NCBI RefSeq assembly: GCF_009834025.1
Contig: NZ_CP047156.1
Location: 310,001 to 374,000, forward strand
From: Epidermidibacterium keratini
GTDB taxonomy: Bacteria > Actinomycetota > Actinomycetes > Mycobacteriales > Antricoccaceae
Length of the DNA stretch: 64,000 nucleotides
Direction of reading: 5' to 3'
Positions 13,466-23,544 of this stretch are shown one piece after another; within the stretch, counting starts at the first letter, position 1; every line of letters begins with the position of its first letter. Position numbers and translations under genes: made by a program. The notes below the pieces were generated by a model. The model was not told the origin of the DNA and ran no database searches. It saw only the letters and a list, made by a program, of their open reading frames with translations.

Positions 13466-14116
13466 CTACTCAGTGGGGTCTTCGCCGCGGTCGAGGGCGT
13501 TCCAGCGGTCGCGCTCGGCGGTATGCCCACCACCCTCGCGCGTCGCCGCAGCGTCGGGTCGCTCGTACTTTGCACCCATAGCTGGGATGCGCGAGCCCAC
13601 GACCAGCAACGCAAGACTCGCAAGGACGGCCAGTGCAATGCCCGCGAACCCGGCGACGATGGCCAGGCTCGATACCTGCGGAGCGGCTTGCTCGGTCAGC
13701 GACTCGCTCAGCTGCTCGGCGGCCTGGACTCGCTCGGCTTGCGACGCGGTGAGCGCCTGGACGGCGAGGTAGCCGGTGACGACGGCGGCGGCGAGTACGA
13801 CGACCGCCACCAGGCGCCGACCCCACGTCCGCGTCGCGAGCAGCGCGACGACCGCAGCGAGGCTCAGCACCCCAAGAGCGGTCAGCATCGGGACGAGTGT
13901 GCCGCCGTTCAGCACCTTCACCACGTCTGGCAGCGGATCACCGCGGCTGACCGTGACCCGCTGCCACGGCTGGCTTGCGGCATAGAGCAGACCACCGCCA
14001 GCGAGCACATACATCGCGACGAGCGCGCCCAGCAGTCGACGGCCCGTGGAATCGGCAGCTCGCTCGTCGTCGACAGTGTCGTCGGTGTCGGGTGTCGCCT
14101 CGGAATCGTCAGCCAT
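13466..14116 (-). CDS. Trp-operon-associated transmembrane protein
   Basis: A 216-residue membrane protein of the family regularly encoded between trpE and trpC in actinobacteria (Trp biosynthesis-associated membrane protein). It has an acidic N-terminus and four helices: roughly residues 28-47, 75-95, 100-122 and 150-172. The conserved extracytoplasmic stretch after helix 1 contains SQPWQRVTV. A role in tryptophan or precursor transport has been suggested from gene order only. Its start overlaps the trpE stop by 8 nt, so translation is coupled. It is convergent with the Nudix gene, with only 5 nt between the stops. Confidence 0.85.
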   Translation of the reverse strand: MADDSEATPDTDDTVDDERAADSTGRRLLGALVAMYVLAGGGLLYAASQPWQRVTVSRGDPLPDVVKVLNGGTLVPMLTALGVLSLAAVVALLATRTWGRRLVAVVVLAAAVVTGYLAVQALTASQAERVQAAEQLSESLTEQAAPQVSSLAIVAGFAGIALAVLASLALLVVGSRIPAMGAKYERPDAAATREGGGHTAERDRWNALDRGEDPTE

Positions 14117-15644
14117 CTGCGTTTTCCTCCAGACGCCCGACGGGACGCAGGCGCTGCGCTGTCTGCACCGCAGTCAGCGCCGCCTTGGCCTTGTTTTGCG
14201 TCTCCAACTCTTCCAGGTGCGGCTGCGAGTCGGCAACGACCCCGCCGGCGGACTGGACGTACGCCGTACCGTCCTTCATCAGCGCCGTACGGATACAGAT
14301 CGCCATGTCGAGATCGCCTGCGGCCGAGAGATAGCCGACGGCTCCGCCATAGATGCCGCGGCGTACTGGCTCGAGCTCGTCGATCACTTGCATTGCACGG
14401 ACTTTTGGCGCTCCGGTGAGCGTTCCGGCCGGGAAGCACGACAGCAGTACGTCGAACGCGTCCTTGTCATCAGCGACCGTGCCGGTGACCGTGGAGACGA
14501 TATGCCACACATGGCTGTACTTTTCGACCGCACCAAGCTCGGTCACCCGCACCGTGCCGGGCGCGCAGACGCGACCCAGATCATTGCGAGCCAGGTCGAC
14601 GAGCATGACGTGCTCGGCGCGTTCCTTCGGGTCCGAGACCAGCTCGTCGGCAAGAGCCTGGTCGCGCTCTGGCGTATCGCCGCGCTTGCGCGTGCCGGCG
14701 ATCGGGTGCAACACCGCCTCGCCGTCTTCGACCGTCACGAGCGCTTCGGGGCTGCACCCGACGATGTCGAAGCCGTCGACGCGCAGCAGATACATGTACG
14801 GCGAGGGGTTCAGCAACCGCAAAATGCGGTAGACGTCGAGCGCCTCCGCGTCGGTGTCGACGGCGAACCGCTGCGAGATCTGCACCTGGAAGACGTCACC
14901 ATCGCGCACGTGCTCCAGCGCGCGTTCAACGGCGGGGCGGTAGTCGCCCTCGGGCGTGCGCGAGCGCACCGGCCGGTCCGGCTCGTCGGATTCTTCCTGC
15001 ACCAGGGTCGGCAGCGGCCCGGCGAGGTCAGCGGTCATCGAGTCGAGCCGGCGAAGCGCATCGTCGTACGCCGCGTCGATCTGCTCGGCGCTCATGTTTG
15101 CGTCGACGAACTCGGTCGCCACGAGCATCACGGTGCCGTCGTGATGGTCGACGACGGCGAGGTCGCTGACCAGCAACATCGACAGCATCGGGATCTGCAG
15201 GTCGTCGTCGGCGCGATCGCCCACGGGTTCGAGCAAGGTCGCGACGTCGTAGCCCAGGTAGCCGACGAGCCCGCCGGCAAGCGCGGGCAGGCCGGGGTCG
15301 CGTGGGCTGCGGATCGCCCGCCACGACTGCGCGAGAACGTCGAGTACGTCGCCTTCGGTCGGCACCCCGGTGGGCGGCGTACCGCTCCACTTCGCGCGGC
15401 CGCCGGACTCGGTCAGGGTGGCGCTCGCGCGGACTCCGACGAAGGAGTATCGCGACCACGAGTGCCCGCGTTCGGCCGATTCCAGCAGGAACGTGCCGAC
15501 TCCTCCGGCGAGCTTGCGGTAGACGCCGACCGGAGTCTCGCCGTCGGCGAGCAGCGTGCGTGTCACCGGGATGACGCGGTGGGTCTGCACGCGGGCCGCG
15601 AACTGCTCGCGGCTCGGGCTGACAGCGCCGATCGGCGCACTCAT
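14109..15644 (-). CDS. trpE: Anthranilate synthase component I
   Basis: TrpE makes anthranilate from chorismate and ammonia, the committed step to tryptophan. The chorismate-binding core is intact: [10 protein letters not shown]-type [69 protein letters not shown] and [11 protein letters not shown]. The feedback-site LLES segment near residue 47 is present, so Trp inhibition is likely. ATG 15644 overlaps the hisI stop by 4 nt and gives 511 residues; a longer frame to 15701 would lie inside hisI. The glutaminase partner TrpG and TrpD are not in this window. Confidence 0.96.
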
Positions 15645-16015
15645 GCGGTGACCGGCAGCGGGCCGCCGGCGATGAAGCACGTCGCGGCTCCGGTGTGGCA
15701 CGCCGGGCCGTGTTGGTCGACCTGCACGAGCAGCGCGTCACCGTCGCAGTCGATGGAGACCGCCTTCACGTCTTGCACGTTGCCGGAGGTCTCGCCCTTT
15801 ACCCAGTACTCGCCACGGCTGCGCGACCAGTACGTCGCCCGCCCGCTGGTCAGCGTGCGATGCAGTGCTTCGTCGTCCATCCAGCCCACCATCAGGACTT
15901 CTTTGGTGTCGTACTGCTGGATGACCGCGGCGACGAGACCGTCGTCGTCGCGCTTGAGCTGCGCCGCGATCTCAGGTGCGAGAGCGCTGTCGGCGGGGGC
16001 GATACGTGCTGACAT
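15641..16015 (-). CDS. hisI: Phosphoribosyl-AMP cyclohydrolase
   Basis: HisI opens the adenine ring of phosphoribosyl-AMP in the third step of histidine synthesis. The zinc and magnesium site motifs [21 protein letters not shown] (Asp cluster, Cys, His and Cys) and the preceding [17 protein letters not shown] are fully conserved. At 124 residues it is the stand-alone form without HisE, as in most actinobacteria. ATG 16015 is used because GAGGAG precedes it by 10 nt; in-frame ATGs at 16033 and 16024 are less well placed. It overlaps trpE by 4 nt, joining the his and trp genes in one transcript. Confidence 0.95.
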
Positions 16016-16081
16016 GCCGTTCATTCTCCTCATTGTCCCAGCCCCCTCGTCGGCGCGGGCCGGGCGCTCGGTGAGTCCTCA

Positions 16082-16141: not shown

Positions 16142-16927
16142 CTAGCCGTTGTAGCCGGCGGCCTCGGCGGCGCGCTTACGCGCCAGCCAGTTCTCGACGT
16201 CGCCGTTCTTGGCGAAGAAGGCCAGCATGCCCGCGAGCAGCAGGCTGATGATCAACGCGACAAGAACCGTCGCGATGCCTTCGCCTTCTGAGATCGTCAG
16301 GATGCCCACCAACCAGACGATCTGCGCGACGATGTAGATGATGCAGGAGATCACGATCAGCTTGTTGTTCTTGCCCGACAGGATCTGGATGGCCCCGACG
16401 AACACCAGCACCGATGAGACGACCCAGCCGACAGCGGCGATGAATGACATCACCAGGAACGCATCGCCGTCCCCGCTGATTCCGAACGCGCCCGACTCGG
16501 AGCCTGCCGTAAGCACCACCAGCAGGTAGGCAGAGGAGAAGAAGCCAAGCGCACCGAAGATGATGCCGATGACGCCCGCGGCGGTCGCCATCCCCGGGCG
16601 GCTCATCGTCTGCTGGCCGCCGAACCCGCCGGCGTACTGCGGCATGCCCTGCCCGTAACCCTGCTGCCCGTATCCCTGCTGTCCATAACCCTGTTGGCCG
16701 TACTGCTGGCCGTAACCCTGCTGTCCATAGCCCTGTTGGCCGTACTGCTGCGTTCCGTACTGCTGCGTGCCGTACTGGTCGCCATAGCCGGACTGGGCTG
16801 GCTGTGAGCCACTCTGCGGGTAGCTCTGTGAGCCGGACTGCGGGTACGACGACTGCGAGCCGGTGTTCGGCTGGTAGGAGTTCGGATCCTGCCCGTAAGG
16901 CTGAGATCCGGTATTCGGGTTGGTCAT
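16142..16927 (-). CDS. Four-helix membrane protein with Gln/Tyr/Gly-rich N-terminus
   Basis: The first 105 or so residues are low-complexity, first Ser/Gln/Pro/Tyr (YPQSGSQ repeats), then a run of QYGQQGYGQ units, which looks prion-like or phase-separating. The C-terminal part carries four membrane helices (about residues 113-135, 155-178, 188-208 and 215-237) and ends in a basic tail [14 protein letters not shown]. The motif [14 protein letters not shown] and the WLA-type tail resemble the four membrane genes that follow upstream, so I treat it as a divergent member of the same set. No enzyme motif is visible and the function is unknown. ATG 16927 is preceded by AAAGGAAC. Confidence 0.75.
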
Positions 16928-17011
16928 AGTTGTTCCTTTGTCAGATGTCAGGGTGTTCGTAATGGCGACGTGAAGTATGTGGCGGGTGTGCGGGTGCGCA
17001 CAGGATACCTA

Positions 17012-17659
17012 TCAGAGGCCTCCCGCTGCGCGCCATGCGGCGCGTTTTGCCAGCCATTCGCCGATCTCGCGGCTCAGGCTACACAGCACAGTAGCGACCG
17101 GAACGATGCTGGCAAGGATCCCGAGCGCGCCGTACACCGCGGCAGCATCCGCCTGATCTTCGGCGTGCAGGACACCCGAGATGGACTGGAGCCAAATCGC
17201 GGCGAGCGCGGCAGCACATCCGATCCGCAGAGCAGCCACTCCGCCGGTGCCACTCAACAAGCGAATCGAGCCGCTGATTGCGCTGATCGCTGCGCCGAGA
17301 CAAAGCAGTGCAAAAAGCCAGCCTCGTGGGGTTATCTGGCCACCTGCGCCGAGGGTAACCGGCATGTAGAACGTCGCGAGCGCAAACAAGGCGCTCACGG
17401 CCCCGACCACGATTCCGCCGCACGCGGATGCTGTCGCGATGGGCAATGTCGGCGGTGGCGCATACCGGAGGTCATGCTCGTGCGGCCGCTCATAGTTAGG
17501 AACTGGGAACCCGAAGCGTGAGGGCATCTGCTGACGCGAGACAGGTCGCGAGTCCCATGAAGCCGACGGTGGGCTCGGCGGCGGAGCGACCGGCTGCGGG
17601 CGCCGCTGCTTGCGCGGGCTCGACGACTGCATCAGCAGCGACAGATCGGTGAAGTCCAC
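17012..17659 (-). CDS. Paralogous four-helix membrane protein A
   Basis: A 215-residue protein with a cytoplasmic Pro/Arg/Ser-rich N-terminus (about 1-70) and four helices (about 75-97, 110-128, 141-160 and 173-193). Its core SGSIRLLSGTGGVAALRIGC, continuing ALAAIWL, and its tail SLSREIGEWLAKRAA are shared with the genes at 17772, 18254 and 18795. The start is GTG 17659 behind AAGGAGG. No known family is recognised and no catalytic residues stand out. The base composition is visibly less GC-rich than the his genes around it, which fits an accessory or late-acquired set. Confidence 0.75.
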   Translation of the reverse strand: MDFTDLSLLMQSSSPRKQRRPQPVAPPPSPPSASWDSRPVSRQQMPSRFGFPVPNYERPHEHDLRYAPPPTLPIATASACGGIVVGAVSALFALATFYMPVTLGAGGQITPRGWLFALLCLGAAISAISGSIRLLSGTGGVAALRIGCAAALAAIWLQSISGVLHAEDQADAAAVYGALGILASIVPVATVLCSLSREIGEWLAKRAAWRAAGGL

Positions 17660-17771
17660 CGGGCCTCCTTCTCGGCACCTGCGGTATGGGCGGTATTACG
17701 ACCAAACGCCCCCTTGACAGGTTCCACGCCTGCCCCATTCCGGGCCGTGTCGCGCGATTTCGGCGGGCGCC

Positions 17772-18257
17772 CTAGCCCAACCTCTGGGGGCTCGCCGGCC
17801 GGGCGGAGTGAGCCGCGAGCCATCGCGCCGTCTCGCGGTTGAAGCTATGAAACACGATCAACAGCAGGAAGACGCTCGCGAGCACGTTGGACACGTCTGC
17901 GACGCGGGCGTCTAACGGGTCGGTTAGCGCTGAGAATGCGGCCGCGACCCAGATCGCGGCGAGCGCCGTCAAGGCTCCAAGCCGCAAGGCTTCCAGACCT
18001 CCGGCGCCTTTCACGAGGCGAATCGCGCCACTAAGCGAGGCGATTGCGGCACCCAGGCACAGCGCGCCAACGACGAGGACGACCGGCCATTCGCGTCCGA
18101 CCTCGGTATAGAGCGGCATCAAGACGAGCCATCCGACGGCACCGAGCGCCGCGAGGCCGCCCACGACAACGCCGGCGATCGCCGTACCGGTAGTGATTTG
18201 CGGACGGCGCGATCCTTCGCGTCGGTCCGGTGACATCTGCTCGCGGCTGCGATTCAT
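17772..18257 (-). CDS. Paralogous four-helix membrane protein B
   Basis: The ATG at 18257 overlaps the stop of the gene upstream (ATGA), giving 161 residues; the open frame continues upstream into that gene but has no reason to be used. A short charged N-terminus (MNRSREQMSPDRREG) precedes four helices. The shared core reads SGAIRLVKGAGGLEALRLGA followed by ALAAIWV, and the tail reads SFNRETARWLAAHSA. It is coupled to 18254-18682 and so is probably made in fixed ratio with it, perhaps as a hetero-oligomer. The function is unknown. Confidence 0.75.
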   Translation of the reverse strand: MNRSREQMSPDRREGSRRPQITTGTAIAGVVVGGLAALGAVGWLVLMPLYTEVGREWPVVLVVGALCLGAAIASLSGAIRLVKGAGGLEALRLGALTALAAIWVAAAFSALTDPLDARVADVSNVLASVFLLLIVFHSFNRETARWLAAHSARPASPQRLG

Positions 18258-18682
18258 CGGCCAGCCAGCCATCGCACGAGCTTGCGGTTTCGGCTTTGCA
18301 ACAGAACCAGTAATAGGAAGACACTCGGCAACAGCGCCGTCCAACGCAGAATCTGGCCGTCCTCGGGGTCGGCGTACGCCGAACGAGCCGCTTCGAGCCA
18401 GATCGCCGCGAGCGCCGCGATGCATCCGACTCGCAACAACGCCAGTCCGCCTTGGCCGTCAATGATCCGGAGCGAGCCGACACCGGTGGCGTACGAGGCG
18501 AAGAAGCAAAGCGGTGCGAATATCCACGGAAACAGACCGAGTCCGGGAATCTCGAGGACGACTGACGCGAGCAGTGTGAGTATCCCGACCAACGCGCTGA
18601 CCGCAGCGACGATGAAGCCAGCACCGGCGACCCAGAGGGCGCTGTCAGGTCGCTTCGGCGGTGGGAAGGCACACGTGCCCAT
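18254..18682 (-). CDS. Paralogous four-helix membrane protein C
   Basis: The shortest member, 142 residues, almost all membrane: a brief N-terminus, helices at about 15-40, 50-68, 82-100 and 110-130, then a basic end RNRKLVRWLAGR. The core VGSLRIIDGQGGLALLRVGC followed by ALAAIWLE matches its neighbours. ATG 18682 has GGAGG at 6 nt. Its stop overlaps the start of member B. No polar cluster suggests a channel or an enzyme. Confidence 0.75.
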   Translation of the reverse strand: MGTCAFPPPKRPDSALWVAGAGFIVAAVSALVGILTLLASVVLEIPGLGLFPWIFAPLCFFASYATGVGSLRIIDGQGGLALLRVGCIAALAAIWLEAARSAYADPEDGQILRWTALLPSVFLLLVLLQSRNRKLVRWLAGR

Positions 18683-18794
18683 GAGAGTCCTCCAATACGC
18701 GGTGCTGATTCACACGCCACGGGTCGGACCGACGCGGACTGCGTGCGGGTTCCGTAGGACCATCGGCTGGTAGTCCCCGCTCGATTCGGGTGCG

Positions 18795-19322
18795 CTATCG
18801 CGGCGGCAAACTTACGTTCTGCCAAGCAGCCCTCTCGACGGCCTCAGCTGCGGCCTTCGCAGCCAGCCACTGGGCAAGTGAGCGGCTAAGGCTACACACC
18901 AGCGCTGCGACCGGAATGATGCTGGCCAGCACCGCCTGCACGCCGTACGTCACAGCCGCGTCTGCGGGATCGTCAGCAATCGTGGTCGCGGAGATAGCGG
19001 CGAGCCAGATCGCGACCAGTGCGGCGAGGCAGCCGAGCCGTAACCACCACAACCCGCCCGCGCCCGACAACAGAATCGCCGACCCGGCGATGGCGAACAT
19101 CGCCGTGGCCAAGCAGAGGGCCGCAAAAATCGGTAGCACGGAATCGGGCACGTTAGGCGAAATTGAAAGAAATGCCGTCCAGAAAGACTGGATGACAGCC
19201 ACAGCCCCGACCATGCACCCAAGAGTCCCGGTTGCAATCCCTAGCGCGGGAATCGGAGGCGGGTTAGGCACGCCCCATGGCGCGACTGCTCCGTGGGGTG
19301 GCGGGTAGTGGGACTGATCCAT
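18795..19322 (-). CDS. Paralogous four-helix membrane protein D
   Basis: A 175-residue protein with a Pro-rich N-terminus (HYPPPHGAVAPWGVPNPPP) and four helices. Its core AGSAILLSGAGGLWWLRLGC followed by ALVAIWLA and its tail CSLSRSLAQWLAAKAA make it most like member A. ATG 19322 with GGGGG upstream is the start; the frame runs on to 19406 without a ribosome site. It is the first of the cluster after hisF and begins 97 nt past the hisF stop, so it may still be read from the his promoter. The function is unknown. Confidence 0.75.
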   Translation of the reverse strand: MDQSHYPPPHGAVAPWGVPNPPPIPALGIATGTLGCMVGAVAVIQSFWTAFLSISPNVPDSVLPIFAALCLATAMFAIAGSAILLSGAGGLWWLRLGCLAALVAIWLAAISATTIADDPADAAVTYGVQAVLASIIPVAALVCSLSRSLAQWLAAKAAAEAVERAAWQNVSLPPR

Positions 19323-19418: not shown

Positions 19419-20180
19419 TTAGCGAACCGGGACGTCGTGGGCGCGCAGGTCGGCTTTGACCTCGCCGACGGTCATCTCACGGAAGTGGAAGACGCTGGCG
19501 GCGAGTACGGCGTCCGCACCGGCACGGACTGCCGGGGCGAAGTGCTCCACTGCTCCCGCTCCCCCGCTCGCGATCACCGGGATGGTGACCTCGCGGCGGA
19601 TCGCCTCGATCAGCTCAATGTCGAAGCCGTTCTTGGTGCCGTCGCGGTCCATCGAGTTCAGCAGCAGCTCGCCGGCACCCAGCCGCTCAGCACGCACCGC
19701 CCACTCGATCGCATCCAGCTCAGCGCTACGCCGTCCCCCATGGGTCGTGACACCGAAGCCCGACGGCCGCCCGTCCTCGCGGCGTACGTCCAGCGACAGC
19801 ACGAGCACCTGCACGCCGAACCGGTCGGCGATCTCGCTGATCAGCTCGGGCCGCGCGATGGCGGCCGTGTTGACGCCGACCTTGTCCGCGCCGGCGCGCA
19901 GCAGCCGGTCGACGTCGACGACCGTGCGTACGCCGCCGCCGACGGTGAGCGGAATGAAGACCGACTCAGCGGTACGCCGCACCACGTCGTACGTCGTCTC
20001 GCGGTTGCCCGAGGACGCGGTGACGTCAAGGAAGGTCAGCTCGTCGGCGCCCTGTTCGTCGTACACCGCGGCGAGCTCGACCGGATCTCCGGCGTCGCGC
20101 AGATCTTGGAAGTTGACACCCTTGACCACGCGACCGGCATCGACGTCCAGGCACGGGATCACCCGCGTGGCAAGGGTCAT
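19419..20180 (-). CDS. hisF: Imidazole glycerol phosphate synthase, cyclase subunit
   Basis: HisF is the TIM-barrel half of IGP synthase; it uses ammonia from HisH to make imidazole glycerol phosphate and AICAR. The first catalytic Asp lies in [16 protein letters not shown] and the second in VLSLDVRRE; phosphate loops VGGGVRT and ASGGAG are intact. The length of 253 is normal. The start overlaps the priA stop by 4 nt. In most relatives hisI follows directly; here the membrane cluster intervenes. Confidence 0.97.
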
Positions 20181-20929: not shown

Positions 20930-21541
20930 TTAAAGCAGTCTCATCCAGTTGGCCAACAGCTCTGCGCCCGCGTCGCCGGACTTCTCGGGGTGGAACTGGG
21001 TCGCGCACAGTCCGGCGTACTCGAACGAGGCGATGAACCGCTCGCCATATTCGCACGTGCTCACCCGCACCTGCGGGTCGGTTGCCGTCGCGGCGTACGA
21101 ATGCACGAAGTAGAAGCGCGTGTCGGCATCGAGACCGCGGTGCAGCACCGAGTCCGGGTGGGCGGCGACGGTGTTCCAGCCCATGTGCGGGCGGATCGGC
21201 GCGTGCAACTCGGTCACTTCGCCTGGTACGACGCCAATCCCGGTGCTGTGCTGGCCGTGCTCGGTGCCACCGGCAAACATGATCTGAGCGCCGACGCAGA
21301 TGCCGAGGACGGGGCGCTCGGCGCGGACGCGTTCGGCGATCAGCTCGCGAGCGCCGATCTGGTCGATACCGGCCATGCACGCAGCAAACGCGCCGACGCC
21401 GGGTACGACGAGCCCGTCGCACGCCGCCGCGCGCTCAAGATCAGCAGTGACCTCGACCTGGGCGCCGGCGCGCTCAAGAGCACGGTGAGCCGAGCGGATA
21501 TTGCCGAAGCCGTAGTCGAGTACGACGACGTCGTTGCTCAA
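20930..21541 (-). CDS. hisH: Imidazole glycerol phosphate synthase, glutamine amidotransferase subunit
   Basis: HisH hydrolyses glutamine and hands ammonia to HisF. It is a class I amidotransferase with the nucleophile Cys in GICVGAQIMF (the usual reading is GICLGMQ) and the His-Glu pair in TQFHPEKS. The YGFGNIRS opening and the GVGAF loop are standard. The length of 203 is normal. The start overlaps the small membrane gene by 4 nt. Confidence 0.96.
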   Translation of the reverse strand: MSNDVVVLDYGFGNIRSAHRALERAGAQVEVTADLERAAACDGLVVPGVGAFAACMAGIDQIGARELIAERVRAERPVLGICVGAQIMFAGGTEHGQHSTGIGVVPGEVTELHAPIRPHMGWNTVAAHPDSVLHRGLDADTRFYFVHSYAATATDPQVRVSTCEYGERFIASFEYAGLCATQFHPEKSGDAGAELLANWMRLL

Positions 21542-21735
21542 GCTGGCACCTGCTGCATGATCCCGGCAGCCAAGGCGAGAAGCGCGGCCAGACCGAGGAT
21601 GACCGCGAAGACGATGCTGCGCTTACGCAAGCTCCACGCTCCGCCCGCGAGCGCGCCGGCGAGCGCCATGAGCCCGAGCACGAGCCAGACGTTGGGCTGA
21701 TCTCCGGCGGCGAGCACTGCGGCGTACTGCATCAC
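21538..21735 (-). CDS. Small membrane protein between hisB and hisH (65 aa)
   Basis: This 65-residue protein has two membrane helices (about 17-33 and 41-60) joined by a short basic loop SLRKRSI. It overlaps hisB upstream and hisH downstream by 4 nt each, so it is locked into the operon and clearly translated. I do not recognise a family; a similar small hydrophobic frame occurs at this place in some other actinobacteria. A role tied to histidine synthesis is only a guess from position. Confidence 0.75.
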
Positions 21736-22340
21736 AGCGCTCCCTTGGTGCTCGGGATCTCGTCGGTGCGCGGGTCAGACTCGACCGCTGCCCGAAGCGC
21801 GCGAGCGAAGGCCTTGAACTGAGCCTCCACGATGTGGTGCGCATCGCGGCCGCCGAGGACCCGCAGGTGGATGCACATGCGCGCGTTGTAGGCGATCGAC
21901 TCGAAGACGTGACGGGTCAGCGAGCCGAGGTACGCCGGCGTCGTACCGCCGATGAGCGCGTATTCCTGGCCCTCCGGTTCGCCGGTGTGCACGCAGAACG
22001 GACGCCCGGAGACATCGACGACGCACTGGGCGAGCGCTTCGTCCAGCGGCACCATCGCATCACCGAAGCGGCGGATGCCGGCCTTGTCGCCGAGCGCCTC
22101 GCGCAGCGCGTCACCGATCGCGATCGCGGTGTCCTCGACGGTGTGGTGGGCATCGATGTGCAGGTCGCCTTCAGTGCGCACGGTCAGGTCGATTAGCGAG
22201 TGCTTCGACAGTGCGGTGAGCATGTGGTCGTAGAAGCCGACGCCGGTGCTGATCTCGCTGCGACCGGTGCCGTCGAGATCGAGCTCGACGACGACCTTGC
22301 TCTCGCTGGTCGCACGTTCAATGCGTGCGGTGCGGCCCAT
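21732..22340 (-). CDS. hisB: Imidazoleglycerol-phosphate dehydratase
   Basis: HisB dehydrates imidazole glycerol phosphate, the sixth step of histidine synthesis, using a di-manganese site. The two His-rich metal motifs are present: [15 protein letters not shown] and [28 protein letters not shown] and the C-terminal [13 protein letters not shown] are conserved. The length of 202 is the monofunctional actinobacterial form. ATG 22340 has AGGAG at 8 nt. Because a gene and a palindrome lie before it, hisB probably has its own promoter here. Confidence 0.97.
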
Positions 22341-22404
22341 GGTGTGTGCTCCTGACGTGTGCGGCGTACTGCTCGATGAGTCGGCCGAAACTCGGCGCTG
22401 AGGC

Positions 22405-22451
22405 TTAGATGTGGTCTAGCTGTCACCTGGTGACAGCTACGCCACACCTAA
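22405..22451. repeat. Large intergenic palindrome, family A, copy 1
   Basis: Arms 22405-22427 and 22429-22451 (23 nt each) pair around a single central T with three mismatches. It matches the perfect palindrome at 33082-33128 almost base for base, including the central part AGCTGTCACC and its complement. It lies upstream of hisB and downstream of the 22555 gene. Confidence 0.9.
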
Positions 22452-22554
22452 GGACCTCGCCGAGATCCCGCTCTCGCCTATATTGTCCCCGACCGTCGCA
22501 ACGGTCGCTCACTCGGTCGCGGCCGATTCACTGAGCAGCACGCCGCGGGGTCGC

Positions 22555-23544
22555 TCACCGATCGATGAGATAGTTGACTTCACACTGCTTGCCCTTCGTG
22601 ACTACCTTTGATTCCAGCAGCCAGACCAGGTTGTCCGCGCGGTTGTAACGGGGATCTCCGCCGGGCTCTTGCGGAGTAAGCGCCACTCCAGCAAGGGCTA
22701 CCTGCAGGAGGCGGACCGTCGACGTCTCGGTCGTCCCGGCGATCTGCGCGAGTTCGCGAGCGCGCGGTTCCATGCCCTCGACAAGTCCGTGATCCCAGCA
22801 ACACACGAGTCGGCAGATGTGCCGATCCGGCTTGAACGCTGGCATTCCGAGGTTTCGCAGGAACTCGGTCGCGATCGGCAACAACATCCCTGGGCATTTC
22901 AGCTCAGCTGGCTCGCCGATCGCCTCTCGCGCGGGTTGGTCTAGGGCGCCTCCAGCAGGCCACGCCTTGGTCGTGATCGAAATCCGAGCCGCAAGGACCA
23001 GCGTCGCCTCAGTCACCGACAGAGACTGACCGTGCTGCGCCGCCCAGTCCGTTCCCGCGCGATACACCGCGCGCAGACGATCTGCGCATGAGTTACCGAT
23101 ACTGAGCCGGTCAGCCCAGCGCCGGATCTGGCCTGCCTGCCACCACTTAGCCCAGCCACCGAGCGCGTCGGCCAGGAAGGCTCGACCTTCGGCGTCGGCC
23201 AGCCCCACCGACCATGATCGTGGATCGGTGAAGGCGCCGAACCGGTCGGCAAGAGTGCCCCGAGTTCTCAGGAAAGCTGACCAACTCCGCCCACTGCTAC
23301 CGATCGCATTGAGAGCCGCCTGAAATACGTGGCCGTCGTCCGCTGTAACGGGCCCACCGGGCAGGAGCGTGGCGGAAGGCGTCTCCTGCTCCATCGCGGT
23401 AATTACGGCCTCAGCACGATCCGAAGTGCTTTGCACGTTTGGATTTCTAACCTGATAGTCATCGGCGATCTTGGTCCACCGCTCGTCGTCCGCGAACACG
23501 ACGTTCTCGATCGCTGCTAGATCGAACTGCTTCGGGTAGGCCAT
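22555..23544 (-). CDS. Hypothetical protein inserted between hisB and hisC
   Basis: A 329-residue soluble protein that I cannot assign. The C-terminal third contains KCPGMLLPIATEFLRNLG followed by FKPDRHICRLVCCW, which recalls helix-hairpin-helix DNA glycosylase or endonuclease III-like folds where a Lys-Pro-Asp-x-His precedes a helix; this is a weak resemblance. The N-terminal part is charged, with many Trp residues in the middle (WSAFLRTRG, GWAKWWQAGQ). ATG 23544 starts it. The his genes normally run on without a gap here, the base composition is lower in GC, and palindrome A lies 104 nt beyond its stop. These suggest acquired cargo. A DNA-repair or phage-defence role is possible but unproven. 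Confidence 0.72.
   Translation of the reverse strand: MAYPKQFDLAAIENVVFADDERWTKIADDYQVRNPNVQSTSDRAEAVITAMEQETPSATLLPGGPVTADDGHVFQAALNAIGSSGRSWSAFLRTRGTLADRFGAFTDPRSWSVGLADAEGRAFLADALGGWAKWWQAGQIRRWADRLSIGNSCADRLRAVYRAGTDWAAQHGQSLSVTEATLVLAARISITTKAWPAGGALDQPAREAIGEPAELKCPGMLLPIATEFLRNLGMPAFKPDRHICRLVCCWDHGLVEGMEPRARELAQIAGTTETSTVRLLQVALAGVALTPQEPGGDPRYNRADNLVWLLESKVVTKGKQCEVNYLIDR

Follow-up and report, generated by a model that had tools for sequence, protein, structure and literature searches.

The five consecutive minus-strand genes that lie between hisF and hisI in Epidermidibacterium keratini very probably represent a tandem expansion, specific to this lineage, within an unnamed actinobacterial family whose proteins have four transmembrane (TM) helices. 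The ancestor of the bacterial family very probably carried members upstream of hisI already. The genes were studied in a window of 64,000 nucleotides, bases 310001-374000 of a single contig of 4,018,808 bp, and are called W1, W2, W3, W4 and W5 here in transcription order from hisF to hisI. A preliminary description of this DNA had read them as the local duplication of an unrecognised membrane family inserted between two normally adjacent genes and as a candidate for an undescribed system, and its coordinates, strand and ATGA overlap (18254-18257) are all correct. The array is real, coherent and unlabelled in the libraries searched, and it is explained by the expansion of a conserved actinobacterial family and not by the insertion of a new system. 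Within it, W5 is the conserved, headed gene and W1-W4 are a fast-diverging burst of local duplication.

18795-19322, minus strand: W1, four-TM paralog with a short Pro-rich N terminus; start 96 bp past hisF
18254-18682, minus strand: W2, four-TM paralog, nearly headless; GGAGG 5' of the ATG start
17772-18257, minus strand: W3, four-TM paralog; overlaps W2 by ATGA
17012-17659, minus strand: W4, four-TM paralog whose Pro-rich head spans about 60 amino acids; GTG start with AAGGAGG upstream
16142-16927, minus strand: W5, conserved member with a disordered head, four TM helices and a C-terminal helix (amino acids 242-256)
16616-16927, minus strand: head of W5, amino acids 1-104; 27% Q, 25% G, 14% Y and 2 charged residues

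W1-W4 are true paralogs. In the all-against-all alignment that had been suggested as a check they align beyond mere hydrophobicity: all six pairs score 173-313 in local alignment, and with 500 shuffles per pair that preserve the hydrophobic pattern, shuffle means were 45-57, the maximum was 101 and none of the 500 reached the real score for any pair. Pairwise identity is 34-43%, and in BLASTP against a database of ten sequences they match one another at E values between 4e-35 and 4e-14. The motifs G-x-G-G, LR-x-G, AL-x-AIW and WLA are present in all four proteins; G-[SA]-[IL]-[RL], also listed as shared, is found in three, W1 having GSAIL instead, and the sole motif of the set carried by W5 is WLA. 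The direct similarity of W5 to the others is weak (E 0.81 to 0.002 as BLASTP query, with W1 unreported; shuffle Z 3.5-6.4, with 0 to 5 of 500 shuffles reaching the score, 5 for W2 and 3 for W3), and a search of the window's genome with a profile built from W1-W4 alone did not recover W5 at E<=0.01. The link comes through relatives. Among the other genomes of the same bacterial family, the first copy in G031 matches W5 (E 1.8e-25) as well as W4, W1, W2 and W3 (2.6e-14, 1.5e-9, 3.6e-8 and 1.0e-4). Because this copy matches both sides, and because of the trees described below, W5 is placed by sequence comparison as a more distant member of the family.

The history of the array emerges from four other genomes of the same bacterial family, drawn by a search of the order; the window's genus is represented by one genome, G002 and G018 belong to one genus and G031 to another. 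All four carry one or two members directly upstream of hisI (G002 one, G018 two, G031 two and G041 one), the nearest ending 16-81 bp before it. When all candidates of the 11-row profile A3 were scored, these four genomes gave their 6 members and otherwise nothing better than E 0.138, and the window's own genome gave W1-W5 and two further matches, with E values of 2e-5 and 0.108. W1-W4 are absent from the other genomes of the family, and when genome contigs were scanned with exact peptide patterns for sequences close to W4, none of the 274 stretches returned was a relative. In the careful tree W1-W4 form one clade (support 100/99), which joins the G031 copies (99/96), and W5 groups with the copies of G002, G018 and G041 (100/98); all eleven members of the bacterial family come together with 88/90, and with 97 in a larger quick tree. 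The branches of W1-W4 are long, 0.43-1.13 each after a stem of 1.13. Local duplication thus holds for W1-W4, but not for all five genes at once, since a constraint making W1-W5 a single clade was rejected (p-AU, from the approximately unbiased test, 0.00083). From the topology it follows that two lineages predate the split of these genera and that one of them grew fourfold in the window genome. W1-W4 very probably arose from the second lineage, that of the G031 copies, by further duplication, loss of the Gln/Gly/Tyr head and fast divergence.

The supposition that hisF and hisI are usually adjacent in relatives was not borne out. We compared 80 named actinobacterial hisF loci, a sample in which Streptomyces is heavily represented and which comprises the 80 best of at least 590 candidates. 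hisI was seen in 52 of these stretches and lay beyond the stretch in 28; the two genes were adjacent (start within 80 bp, or overlapping, as in L099 and L108) in 8 of the 52, and in the remaining 44 hisI was 725-5,514 bp from hisF. With adjacency this rare, and with a member upstream of hisI in all four other genomes of the family, an insertion into a normally adjacent pair is not supported. Nor is a separate undescribed system supported, since the array belongs, as an expanded branch, to a family with profile A3 matches at E<=1e-5 in 128 of the 397 genomes of the order and in 27 of the 296 of the class. For each genome the top 6 or 9 candidates were scored, and the low-complexity head may carry some of the matches. 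Foreign or phage origin was also considered and set aside: viral scans with patterns from the W1-W4 alignment and the W5 core gave 71 and 17 stretches, respectively, none of them a relative, in scans that detect close relatives only.

The tendency to adjoin hisI is common to two actinobacterial families. In Geodermatophilaceae, where hisF in the four loci compared shares 82-91% identity with that of named Blastococcus, the gene just upstream of hisI belonged to the family in all 9 loci of a first set after profile iteration (in 6 before it). The same held for all 11 loci of a second set, where the first-round profile gave E 1e-7 or better; two genomes are common to both sets. Most of these hisI-adjacent matches are not significant when the core profile is used unextended, and the iteration was checked with reversed sequences, whose best matches over four rounds were none, 0.13, 0.0014 and 0.0004. 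Further members lie in the interval in 8 of the 11 loci of the second set, where some frames overlap and the genes were left uncounted, and hisF was seen in 10 of the 11, 7.7-11.4 kb from hisI. The Geodermatophilaceae genes form a separate clade, so the shared position is not shown to derive from one ancestral gene, and a joint grouping with the members of the window's family was disfavoured (p-AU 0.032). In a third family, f2, a tentative member occurs in the interval in 8 of 11 loci, mostly on the hisF side; homology of these genes downstream of hisF depended on the iteration and they sit on a branch of their own of 1.82, and they were kept as tentative. Two of the 80 named hisF loci, L120 and L086, gave a match after iteration. 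Off the his loci, wider-family members occur as neighbouring pairs in three Geodermatophilaceae stretches (L217, L218 and L225), each protein with a long Tyr/Gly/Gln/Pro-rich head.

This distribution bears on the idea that the proteins belong to histidine metabolism, for instance by anchoring His enzymes or sensing the pathway. Their place beside hisI in two families and in the interval of the third, tentative one would fit such a role, but members also occur at other places in further genomes and none of 9 loci from five other families has one. The interval moreover holds unrelated genes, an ABC transporter in two Geodermatophilaceae loci (L234 and L242) and a two-component pair with an MFS transporter in an f2 locus (L243), as expected of a loose neighbourhood, and we regard a histidine role as very improbable.

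The expectation that no known family would fit has held. No Pfam or NCBIfam cut-off was passed by any of W1-W5, no Pfam cut-off by the 11 family members or 19 further relatives, and 10 of the 19 were likewise negative in NCBIfam; judged by sequence, this is an unnamed actinobacterial four-TM family that the libraries searched do not claim. Titles and the opening parts of abstracts on such proteins and on the hisF-hisI interval contain nothing on the family. The hisI-adjacent Geodermatophilaceae relatives approach DUF6264 (PF19779, function unknown; no paper on it was found), which also has a low-complexity head followed by a helical membrane core, with 30.1, 24.1 and 20.6 bits against a cut-off of 31, whereas none of the 11 members from the window's family, W1-W5 included, matches it at E<=0.1. 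W1 matches DUF4231 with 22.3 bits (E 0.00019, cut-off 24.7) and SLATT_3 with 15.5 bits (cut-off 45), and W2-W5 have no match. These sub-threshold scores and the helical membrane segments are what could suggest effector or pore-forming proteins of a SLATT-like conflict system. However, DUF4231 is matched by only 1 of the 11 members and beneath the cut-off, the genes next to the array (hisF, hisI and trpE) have housekeeping functions, and neither PADLOC (best E 0.34) nor PHROGs (best E 0.21) gave a pointer to defence or phage, which leaves this explanation highly unlikely.

The four hydrophobic segments described for each protein agree with hydropathy and with AlphaFold2 (AF2) models. The W4 core, modelled from the five window sequences, has a mean predicted local distance difference test score (pLDDT) of 89.7 and helices at 10-39, 48-72, 78-102, 106-131 and 134-148, that is, four long helices and a C-terminal one. 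The W5 model has the same helices preceded by a disordered head, with pLDDT <50 to about residue 104 apart from scattered residues. Heads differ across the array, that of W5 being Gln/Gly/Tyr-rich and disordered, that of W4 Pro-rich, and W1-W3 having little or none; a DNA repeat of period 15 lies within the coding region of the W5 head. As a query against its own genome the W5 head matches only itself, and the profile A3 match at E 2e-5 mentioned above is head-only. That match (L216:1690-2472, about 573,189-573,971 of the genome and outside the window) is a protein with a Gln/Tyr/Gly-rich head resembling that of W5, by eye one hydrophobic segment, a different C-terminal part and no Pfam match. 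The W5-type head looks like a movable module.

Loop charges were counted in the 11 members from the window's family, with column limits set by hand. Loop 2-3 has 1-2 K/R and the C terminus 2-5 K/R in all 11, and loops 1-2 and 3-4 are each without K/R in 9 of 11, a pattern that fits an arrangement with both termini cytoplasmic (N-in/C-in). One Trp of the C-terminal helix is invariant, and TM1 lacks any K/R/D/E in all 11. Four short TM helices and adjacent, paired genes would also suit small transporters or channels working as homo- or hetero-oligomers, like the pairs of the small multidrug resistance (SMR) family. SMR proteins have an essential membrane-embedded Glu in TM1, but the TM1 of the array family is uncharged throughout, and with no family match above a cut-off either, we consider a transporter improbable.

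Our tentative reading is that the proteins are oligomeric membrane scaffold or adaptor subunits. They would sit in the membrane with cytoplasmic N and C termini; on the cytoplasmic side, the disordered head and the Trp-containing C-terminal helix would recruit partners or sense the membrane, and W1-W4, with little or no head of their own, could mix with or dilute W5. The position among the his genes would then reflect putative common transcription and not a role in histidine synthesis. The expansion combined with this mechanism is the best overall explanation we have, with a likelihood a little short of even. A bolder version, in which the hisF-hisI interval is a long-lived nursery of a bacterial tetraspan-like membrane organiser and W1-W5 form a hetero-oligomer whose phase-separating W5 head recruits cytoplasmic clients while W1-W4 tune its size and composition, strikes us as a long shot.

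The nearest studied protein by build is the mycobacterial Rv0954. The published account (PMC8093794) describes four TM helices, cytoplasmic termini and a Pro/Gln-rich tail, a mid-cell location and partners in the mycobacterial division complex. Rv0954/DUF5336 (PF17270) shares with the array family the four helices, the cytoplasmic termini, which are predicted for the array family, and, with its headed members, a long Pro/Gln-rich disordered part, which is, however, C-terminal in Rv0954 and N-terminal in the array family. DUF5336 is not among the families that Pfam returns at E<=1 for the window proteins and is absent from all five genomes of the window's family, and in six genomes of another family (f7) it occurs at places other than the profile A3 matches. 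Rv0954 is not a family member and serves as an analogy. Eukaryotic four-TM organisers (claudin/MP20, TARP, synaptogyrin and CD20) share the four-helix bundle, with VIA Z 6.4-7.5, but these scores are within the generic range of helical bundles and identity is 7-11%, up to 15% in a TARP row; the claudin/tetraspan-type comparison as a whole gave Z 6-7.5 amid unrelated bundles reaching 9.9, the best being a soluble helical bundle. Foldseek found no match at E<=0.001 in PDB and BFVD, and the best hit of profile A3 among solved structures was not significant (E 0.066; 7qhm_J, a 'Hypothetical membrane protein' of 112 residues within a solved complex).

Several observations weigh against the scaffold reading. 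The fold matches are all generic, the members have no invariant polar site able to define an activity, and a W5-like head is carried by the unrelated L216 protein of the same genome. The pN/pS (nonsynonymous over synonymous differences) of 0.55-0.72 among W1-W4 speaks for the main explanation, but pS is near saturation, which makes the ratio a rough sign, and between W5 and W1-W4 it is about 1. GC at third codon positions (GC3) is 0.72-0.78 in W1-W4, 0.859 in W5 and 0.83-0.91 in five his/trp genes. Relaxed selection or weak expression would equally fit the low GC3 of W1-W4 and their long branches, and the main rival is accordingly that W5 keeps the ancestral job and that W1-W4 are surplus, redundant paralogs under relaxed selection, persisting or slowly decaying. 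Their absence from the other genomes of the family and pN/pS values as high as 0.72 point the same way. Against this, all four frames are intact, Shine-Dalgarno-like sites precede W2 and W4, the motifs have been kept despite deep divergence and pN/pS stays below 1. We regard such redundancy as unlikely, if less so than any of the other rivals. Overall GC was described as lower than in the flanks, which is true but slight: the array is at about 0.64-0.67 against mostly 0.66-0.71, and window positions 22000-23500 are equally low.

On sequence grounds, our results delimit a family of small membrane proteins to which none of the libraries searched has a claim. With one headed, conserved copy and four head-poor, fast-evolving ones, the array is a natural test case for low-complexity heads on bacterial four-TM proteins. 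If the proteins are indeed scaffolds, they would offer a genetically simple model of membrane organisation in polar-growing or septating actinobacteria.

The genes around the array are the following.

19419-20180, minus strand: hisF, upstream neighbour of the array (PF00977, 272.1 bits)
15641-16033, minus strand: hisI, downstream neighbour of the array (PF01502, 118.7 bits)
14109-15632, minus strand: trpE, next gene after hisI (PF00425, 299.6 bits); start approximate
13466-14116: Trp-associated transmembrane protein (Trp_oprn_chp), after trpE, its usual companion (PF09534, 130.1 bits)

Trp_oprn_chp is, like the array genes, a multi-TM protein of this his-trp neighbourhood, but all five array proteins score at chance level against it in the shuffle control. 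By the starts given, the gaps from hisF through W1-W5 to hisI are 96, 112, -4 (the ATGA overlap), 112, 84 and 108 bp. A search of the stretch yielded no promoter-like site, and its two terminator-like sites do not exceed chance expectation, so the transcription unit is unproven, a further point against the common transcription invoked above. In G041, the stretch examined around hisI does not include hisF. Elsewhere in the window, a short open reading frame of 65 amino acids (21538-21735) between hisH and hisB has hydrophobic stretches and no Pfam match.

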